Source: Acidobacteriota bacterium
GTDB taxonomy: Bacteria; Acidobacteriota; Terriglobia; Acidiferrales; UBA7541
Assembly: GCA_013286165.1 (NCBI GenBank)
Contig: JABDGF010000004.1
Coordinates: 1 to 64,000, forward strand
Direction of reading: 5' to 3'
Length of the DNA: 64,000 nucleotides
This document shows positions 23,033 to 24,611 of the stretch, one piece after another; positions within the stretch are counted from its first letter, which is position 1, and each line of letters starts with the position of its first letter. The position numbers and the translations under genes were made by a program. Under the pieces are notes generated by a model. That model was given only the letters and a program-made list of their open reading frames with translations. It did no database searches and was not told where the DNA came from.

Positions 23033-23851
23033 ATGGCACTGAAAACTTTTAAGCCGTACACACCGTCGCGTCGCTTTTTGACGATGCTCGATAAGAGCGA
23101 GATCACCAAGCAAACGCCGGAAAAGTCCCTGACCGAGTCGCAGAAGCGAACCGGTGGACGCAACTCGCACGGCGAAGTCACCAGCTGGCACCGTGGCGGC
23201 GGCCACGCGCAGAAGTACCGCGTGATCGATTTCCGCCGCGATAAGACTGGAATTCCCGCGAAGGTTGCGGCGATCGAATACGATCCGAACCGTTCGGCGC
23301 GCATCGCGCTGTTGCACTACGCCGATGGCGAGAAGCGCTACATCCTGCAGCCGGTGGGCCTCGAAGTTGGCATGACCGTGCAGAACGGACCGGCGGCTGA
23401 AATTATGCCGGGCAATGCGCTGCCGATTTCCGCGATTCCTCCAGGCACGATGATTCACAACCTTGAGCTGTATCCCGGTAAGGGCGGCCAAGTGGTGCGT
23501 TCGGCGGGCGGCGCGGCGCAGTTGATGAGTAAAGAAGGCGACATCGCGCTGGTGAAGCTGCCTTCGGGCGAAGTTCGCAAGTTCAGCGTCGGTTGCATGG
23601 CTTCGATCGGCCAACTCGGCAACCTCGACCACGAAAACGTCACCTACGGAAAGGCCGGCCGCACGCGTTGGCACGGCAAGCGTCCGACGGTTCGCGGCGT
23701 GGCGATGAACCCGGTGGACCATCCGCACGGGGGTGGTGAAGGCCGCGTGAAGGGTAACCATCCGCAGACTCCGTGGGGCTTCCCCACGCTTGGCGCGAAG
23801 ACGCGGAAGAAGCGCCGCAGCGACAGCGTAATCGTCGAACGGCGGAAGTAA
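23033..23851 (+). CDS. rplB: Ribosomal protein L2
   Basis: Universal core 50S protein near the peptidyl transferase centre, required for subunit joining. 272 residues. Begins [20 protein letters not shown], has [20 protein letters not shown] (about 41-60) and the diagnostic [20 protein letters not shown] (about 221-240), with the essential histidine in DHPHGGG. TGGGFP-type ending [17 protein letters not shown]. It is followed by a 77-base gap and then an unexpected small gene rather than rpsS directly. Confidence 0.98.
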
Positions 23852-23928
23852 GCGGTAGAGCTTGTACGGCAGCAAAGCACGAGAAGTGTACGGACCCGGC
23901 GCGGGGGAAAAATGGGGAGTCAGAAACT

Positions 23929-24273
23929 ATGACAGCAGCCCGTTCGTCTCGTCGTCGTACAAGCCGGCGTGCATCTCGCACTCGCAAGCCGGCAGCGCGC
24001 AGAGCAGCAAAAACGGCAGTGCGCCGTGCAGTGAAGCCGGCCGCGAAAGCGGCGGTGAAAGTGAAGGCGACGGCGAAAGCAGCCGCGCCGCAGGTGCAGT
24101 TCAGGTTGTGCCGGTCGGGATGGGCTGTGATTGTGGAAACGCAGCCGAATGCGCAGGGGACGCGGTTTGTATGTCCTTTCTGCCCGATGTCGCACCGGGT
24201 ATCCGGACCGGTGAGAGGATTTAAGAGAGTTCGCCGCGCGCAGTGGATGAAGCTGCGCCGAGTGGAAGGATAA
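23929..24273 (+). CDS. Unrecognised small basic Cys/His protein inside the S10 cluster
   Basis: I do not recognise this family. The 114-residue product has a very basic, Ala-rich N-terminal half (residues 1-55: repeats such as [19 protein letters not shown]) like histone H1 or ribosomal tails. A compact C-terminal half follows, [19 protein letters not shown] (56-74), [14 protein letters not shown] (80-93) and basic [13 protein letters not shown]. Cys61, Cys82, Cys85 and His89 could form a small zinc site (C-x20-C-x2-C-x3-H). GGGGAG at 23914-23919 is 9 bases before the ATG, and rpsS starts 8 bases after the stop, so it is well set into the operon between rplB and rpsS, where other bacteria have no gene. 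Base composition is like its neighbours. An rRNA-binding or ribosome-associated role is inference from composition and location. Confidence 0.72.
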
Positions 24274-24281
24274 GGAACAAG

Positions 24282-24611
24282 ATGCCGCGTTCGCTGAAAA
24301 AGGGACCGTTTATCGACGACCACCTCCGCAAGAAGGTGGAAGGCATGAACACCCGCAACGAAAAGAAAGTGGTGAAGACCTGGTCGCGCCGTTCGACGAT
24401 TCTGCCGGACATGATCGGCCACACCATCGCCGTTCATAACGGGAAGAAGTTCATCCCGGTGTACATCACCGAGCAGATGATCGGACACAAGCTGGGCGAA
24501 TTCGCGCCGACGCGCACGTTCAAAGGCCACGCGGTGAAAGCGGCCCTGGAACGTGCGGCAGCGGCGGCTCCGGCGGGCGGAGCGGCACCGGCTCCGGCGG
24601 CGAAGTCGTAA
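24282..24611 (+). CDS. rpsS: Ribosomal protein S19
   Basis: 30S head protein bound to S13 near the A-site finger. Start ATG 24282 ([19 protein letters not shown]) is preferred over the in-frame ATG at 24243, which adds 13 unrelated residues, because AAGGAAC lies just before it. Signatures: [20 protein letters not shown] (about 29-48) and [20 protein letters not shown]. 109 residues; the last 20 or so are an Ala/Pro extension ([18 protein letters not shown]) absent from typical S19. Confidence 0.96.

Follow-up and report, generated by a model that had tools for sequence, protein, structure and literature searches.

A small basic Cys/His protein encoded between rplB and rpsS in one family of Candidatus Acidiferrales

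An additional gene in the S10 cluster

Few gene orders in bacteria are as well conserved as that of the S10 operon, and the set of proteins it encodes is usually thought to be closed. In the window, i.e., the whole stretch of 64,000 nucleotides analyzed here, genes named from their sequences form an otherwise ordinary S10-spc-alpha cluster in which one additional gene resides between rplB (uL2; 23033-23851) and rpsS (uS19; 24282-24611). All window features described in the following lie on the forward strand. The additional gene occupies positions 23929-24273, with its ATG at 23929 and its stop codon at 24271-24273, and encodes a basic Cys/His protein of 114 amino acids. It is separated from the end of rplB (23851) by 77 bases and from the ATG of rpsS (24282) by 8 bases. 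A Shine-Dalgarno sequence, GGGGAG (23914-23919), is located 9 bases 5' of the start codon. Gene length, ribosome binding site and distance to rpsS are in full agreement with the preliminary description of this DNA.

The same description held that rplB is followed directly by rpsS in almost all bacteria and raised the question whether the extra gene always lies between the two. Scanning 84,980 species genomes with two peptide patterns, which distant kin would escape, yielded 77 loci, most of them titled Acidobacteria, Terriglobia or Candidatus Acidiferrales/Acidiferrum. Without exception (77/77) the gene was found to follow rplB and to precede rpsS on the same strand, at a distance from rpsS of 0-126 (mostly 4-10) bases, and its linkage to ribosomal protein genes is therefore stable. 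The short gap to rpsS, usually 4-10 bases, is consistent with translational coupling. Outside the family to which the window belongs, all 18 genomes examined (six from the order, eleven from the class and one from the phylum) have rplB and rpsS as direct neighbors, the distance between the two, -4 to 130 bp, being too small for the gene.

Distribution and inheritance

The taxonomic search used a profile built from the C-terminal 60 residues of the protein. Among 95 genomes of the order Candidatus Acidiferrales, which NCBI places in the class Terriglobia, 77 yielded a match. These were 77 of the 89 genomes of the window's family, with all 13 of its genera represented, while the gene was not found in the six genomes of the two other families. 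The order contains 79 strong matches (E <= 7.4e-32), none of them interrupted by a stop. In the 12 family genomes that the profile did not match, rpsS gave no match either (0/12), so that the S10 region is most likely absent from these assemblies.

Beyond the family, a protein search of 61 relatives matched 36 genomes, and the three of these that lie outside the family gave weak and partial matches. In a class sample, 74 of 299 genomes matched the profile, 66 of them belonging to the window's family and the other eight showing weak partial matches; in a phylum sample the count was 9 of 396, with the window's own genome as the sole strong match. Neither the class sample nor the phylum sample thus contains a convincing homologue outside the family. 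The weak extra-family profile matches (eight in the class, eight in the phylum; E 2.3e-4 to 9e-3) were rejected as distant homologues. They cover 18-41 of the 60 positions and several cross stops, and the best of them (L053), the one that was inspected, has no comparable open reading frame. The preliminary description had suggested a lineage-specific protein of the Acidobacteriota; lineage specificity is borne out, while the lineage is narrower, namely one family of one order.

A tree of rplB was calculated with 71 holders of the gene (the window and those 70 of the 77 loci with >= 200 aligned residues) and 18 non-holders. The holders make up one side of a branch with a support of 100/95, and a genome of family f2 adjoins them. 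The tree fits a single gain on the family stem, which would be enough to explain it. Taken together, profile search, rpsS check and rplB tree describe a gene that is present throughout one lineage and is inherited vertically.

Some irregularities concern the assemblies. Two loci are titled Betaproteobacteria and Bacillota (L091 and L131), and their rplB genes sit inside the Acidiferrales family; these are probably mislabelled metagenome-assembled genomes (MAGs). Two MAGs contributed two gene copies each (L061/L116 and L087/L089; JABCZK01, JAIQEV01). The two rplB genes of L061/L116 lie in separate parts of the tree, pointing to a mixed bin and not to paralogues. In many family genomes the S10 contig starts about 3 kb 5' of the gene, roughly at the place of tuf in the window, and a duplicated tuf may break the assemblies there.

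The protein, its codon usage and its leader RNA

The protein is composed of two parts. The N-terminal tail (residues 1-57; 23929-24099) is rich in arginine, lysine, alanine and proline. It varies in length, with 40-92 residues preceding the core in the family (R 20%, A 19%, P 11%, K 9%), and is probably disordered, AF2 giving pLDDT values of about 46-48 over residues 1-50. The core (residues 58-114; 24100-24270) has exactly 57 residues in 77 of 77 loci. As a whole the proteins are small and highly basic, with a pI of 10.9-12.0 and a length of 97-149 amino acids in the 77 loci, a range that rests on start codons assigned by rule. All loci share C61 (24109-24111), C82 (24172-24174), C85 (24181-24183) and H89 (24193-24195), and G64, W65, T78, R79, P83, F84, S88, R90, V91 and the motif GPVRGF are likewise invariant; RRxxWxxLRR is nearly so. 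Note that some of these residues fall within the scan patterns. A recount was therefore made on 52 loci from the protein and profile searches with a regular expression that does not demand Cys or His, and all four residues of the quartet were kept in 32 of 32 distinct sequences. The quartet, the Arg/Ala/Lys-rich N-terminal half and the basic C-terminus are found just where the preliminary description had placed them.

For the core, median NG86 values were 0.13 for dN, 1.15 for dS and 0.10 for dN/dS (dS was usable in 379 of 435 pairs), i.e., it is under strong purifying selection. The combination of missing homologues and excess non-synonymous change, which the preliminary description had considered as evidence against the gene, was not encountered in the family. 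We thus state with confidence, on the basis of the conserved core and the dN/dS ratio, that the gene is real and more than a chance open reading frame. The opposite assumption of a spurious or non-functional frame could draw on low codon adaptation in the window (see below). It is already contradicted by the conservation, with strong profile matches uninterrupted by stops and, in most loci, a start codon preceded by a Shine-Dalgarno-like sequence, and its chances are negligible.

An in-frame ATG is present about 36 bases upstream of the assigned start in many loci. A longer N-terminus (MNPARR...) was nevertheless rejected, because other loci have an interrupted reading frame or no such ATG and yet keep the nucleotide element. 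We read this stretch as a nucleotide element and not as a protein extension, and an upstream start may still be used in some species.

The arrangement of the quartet, with one CxxC, a histidine four residues on and a lone cysteine 21 residues before, differs from that of a classic two-knuckle zinc ribbon. The latter was rejected because it requires two CxxC/CxxH knuckles and the core has a single CxxC. The four residues probably bind one metal ion. We infer this site from the invariance of the quartet, since the AF2 models are of low confidence, with a mean pLDDT of 57.4 (full protein, 73 rows) and 58.2 (core, 66 rows), and contain short strands only. A Foldseek search with one such low-confidence model (pLDDT 57-58) returned no matches at E values up to 0.001.

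Runs resembling KPAAK are known from bacterial histone H1-like proteins, and their occurrence in the Ala/Lys/Pro/Arg-rich tail, joined to a small core, brings to mind a DNA-binding nucleoid protein that is merely housed in a highly expressed operon. We consider this very improbable: the C-terminus of the window's rplD product is similar, which deprives such tails of diagnostic value in this case, conservation resides in the core and not in the tail, the gene never leaves its place between rplB and rpsS in the 77 loci, and neither Pfam nor NCBIfam gives a match to families of this kind.

Codon adaptation of the 114-codon frame in the window is 0.436, below that of all 27 cluster genes tested (0.55-0.74) and within the range of the 11 other long open reading frames of the window (0.38-0.69). 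This suggests modest expression here, unlike that of a maximally expressed ribosomal protein. Across the family (66 of the 77 loci with complete neighbors), the values are 0.618 for the core, 0.616 for rpsS and 0.517 for the whole frame. Overall, the codon data neither favor nor oppose expression like that of a ribosomal protein. The interpretation in the preliminary description, an extra ribosomal or rRNA-binding protein, stands in part: the protein is lineage-specific, conserved, fixed in position, equipped with an invariant quartet and outside every named family searched, and it may bind the ribosome, rRNA and a metal. Its codon usage is mixed, with a low value in the window and agreement of core and rpsS across the family.

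Immediately 5' of the gene's Shine-Dalgarno sequence, 34 loci (within L074-L136, essentially the largest genus) have the potential to form a hairpin of 9-10 pairs, 15-45 bases before the ATG. In an alignment of these leaders, 86.1% of 339 cells pair, compared with 28-48% for slid structures, and nine of ten pairs show two-sided changes. Cells with two-sided changes number 33 versus a shuffled mean of 10.2, a value reached by none of 500 shuffles, although the set was picked with hairpins already noticed in single folds, and relatedness is not removed by shuffling. RNAalifold recovers the same helix. A conserved, covarying structure is thus present at the translation start of this ribosomal protein operon gene in one genus, which is not that of the window. 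A model of the hairpin found its best match upstream of the gene in all ten largest-genus genomes searched, some of which may be the model's own sources; the hairpin is therefore not a dispersed repeat. Leaders of other genera are not recognized by this model, L115 giving a faint match (E 8.4). The model also matches at almost one and the same place upstream of rplB in three deep-branching loci, L125 (1186-1223; E 0.00076), L133 (1189-1226; E 0.31) and L113 (1199-1235; E 1.6), where the matched stretches may be coding sequence.

At the place of the hairpin, the window carries a copy of a GC-rich leader element, CCYGGCGCGGCGGG, with two mismatches (23895-23908). The element is present in many genera other than the largest: with at most one mismatch, it occurs within 100 bases after rplB in 23 of the 43 non-hairpin loci, compared with 0/43 each in the final 100 bases of rplB and in a 100-base stretch of rpsS. 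As the hairpin model misses the leaders of other genera, we do not equate the element with the hairpin. Shuffled sequences fold as well as the leader of the window itself (z +0.75), the mean folding z of 68 leaders is only -0.74, and the leaders of the deep-branching loci L113, L125, L130, L132 and L133 are, at 17-28 bases, too short for the hairpin. Leader structure is, in consequence, limited to part of the family.

A hairpin before the Shine-Dalgarno sequence is a setting typical of the control of ribosomal proteins. Our hairpin resembles the leader RNAs of autogenously controlled ribosomal protein genes in that it adjoins the Shine-Dalgarno sequence of a gene in such an operon and shows compensatory changes. 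It differs from the known ones in that no meaningful Rfam match was obtained for the window segment 23700-24400 and that this form is confined to one genus. The protein might be a dedicated RNA-binding operon regulator that is not itself part of the ribosome, senses a metal or a free ribosomal protein, and controls rpsS and the downstream genes via the leader hairpin. The invariant Cys/His quartet, the covarying hairpin of the largest genus and the short gap to rpsS would suit this role. Given that the hairpin is not universal, with the very short leaders of the five deep-branching loci, and that the fold of the window's leader does not surpass that of shuffled sequences, we regard such a regulator as unlikely.

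Proposed function and comparison with known systems

The preliminary description had singled out the gene as a candidate for something undescribed, and the searches agree. No match above cut-off was obtained in Pfam or NCBIfam for the window protein and 18 family members, none in PHROG, none by tblastn in 50,697 phage records and no significant one by sequence in the PDB (best profile match E 0.027). In the literature, searched at the level of titles and abstract openings, no description of this gene was found. Within the libraries and literature covered, the family therefore appears undescribed. With PHROG and the phage records devoid of matches, a phage origin was rejected. Descent from a neighboring ribosomal protein was also rejected, since the core, aligned by hhalign with 27 proteins of the window, reached a probability of 10% at best (rpmD, 23 columns). 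Replacement of a lost ribosomal protein is likewise not indicated: in a genome-wide check that covered bL33, bL31, bL25 and bS21, the last three were present in 17 of 17 genomes each and bL33 in 16 of 17, the single miss being an outgroup. Judged from their sequences, uL30 and bL36 are encoded in the window.

Strict retention in the S10 operon, a basic tail, a small invariant core and a single vertical gain are best accommodated by an additional, family-specific ribosome-associated protein, either an extra ribosomal protein or an assembly factor. We favor this reading with some reserve, as the low codon adaptation in the window and the poor AF2 models count against certainty. Ribosome binding, metal binding and autoregulation are properties that we infer for the protein. 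Expressed from the S10 operon, it would appear together with uL2, uS19 and other ribosomal proteins. Its small, presumably beta-rich core, holding one metal ion on the quartet, could dock on a defined site of rRNA or a ribosomal protein with GPVRGF and RRxxWxxLRR as the docking surface, and the tail may thread into or coat rRNA, as the tails of ribosomal proteins do. The RNA structure just before the Shine-Dalgarno sequence would probably tune translation of the gene and rpsS, perhaps via the protein itself.

Present data do not separate a structural ribosomal protein from an assembly factor. A substoichiometric factor for ribosome biogenesis or translation, i.e., an assembly chaperone, an rRNA-processing or a hibernation factor, does not oppose the favored reading and instead splits it; we hold it to be possible, on a tentative basis. 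Low codon adaptation in the window is in line with such a factor, as are the youth and restricted distribution of the gene and sets of ribosomal protein genes that are complete as far as tested. The residence of the gene inside the operon most densely packed with ribosomal protein genes, the lack of a catalytic domain recognizable by Pfam or NCBIfam and the match between core and rpsS in codon adaptation across the family speak against it. A more far-reaching proposal sees in the protein a bona fide ribosomal protein that is new and has a Cys3His metal site. A single gain at the base of the family would have been followed by fixation in the S10 operon, and the protein would repress translation of its own gene and rpsS by binding the leader hairpin, part of which would mimic its site on rRNA. 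This is speculative and rather doubtful as a whole; if it were true, a complete ribosomal protein with its own regulation would have been added late to a highly conserved operon.

An extra S10 gene kept throughout a widespread uncultured soil family points to an unlisted ribosome component or a dedicated assembly factor, and, as an instance that can be placed, illustrates how such proteins are acquired. No searched library has a model for it, and the ribosomes of uncultured lineages can thus not be read by annotation transfer.

The closest resemblance in the PDB is to eL43 (L37a), a eukaryotic zinc-ribbon ribosomal protein, over 20 residues around the CPFC knuckle (E 0.14 and 0.027). Identity with eL43/L37a was rejected, since even the better value is not significant and eL43/L37a is not among the Pfam matches. 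In eL43, a second CxxC follows the first, whereas here the partners of the CxxC are a lone cysteine before it and a histidine after it. A different parallel is provided by bacterial ribosomal proteins. Two such proteins, bS22 and bL38, were missing from annotation and were found in the ribosome of a spirochaete, Borrelia (PMC10618245). Like bS22, bL37 and bL38 as presented there, the protein described here is small, basic, lineage-restricted and of a kind at times overlooked by annotation. Unlike them, this putative ribosome constituent carries a Cys/His quartet and sits in the S10 operon.
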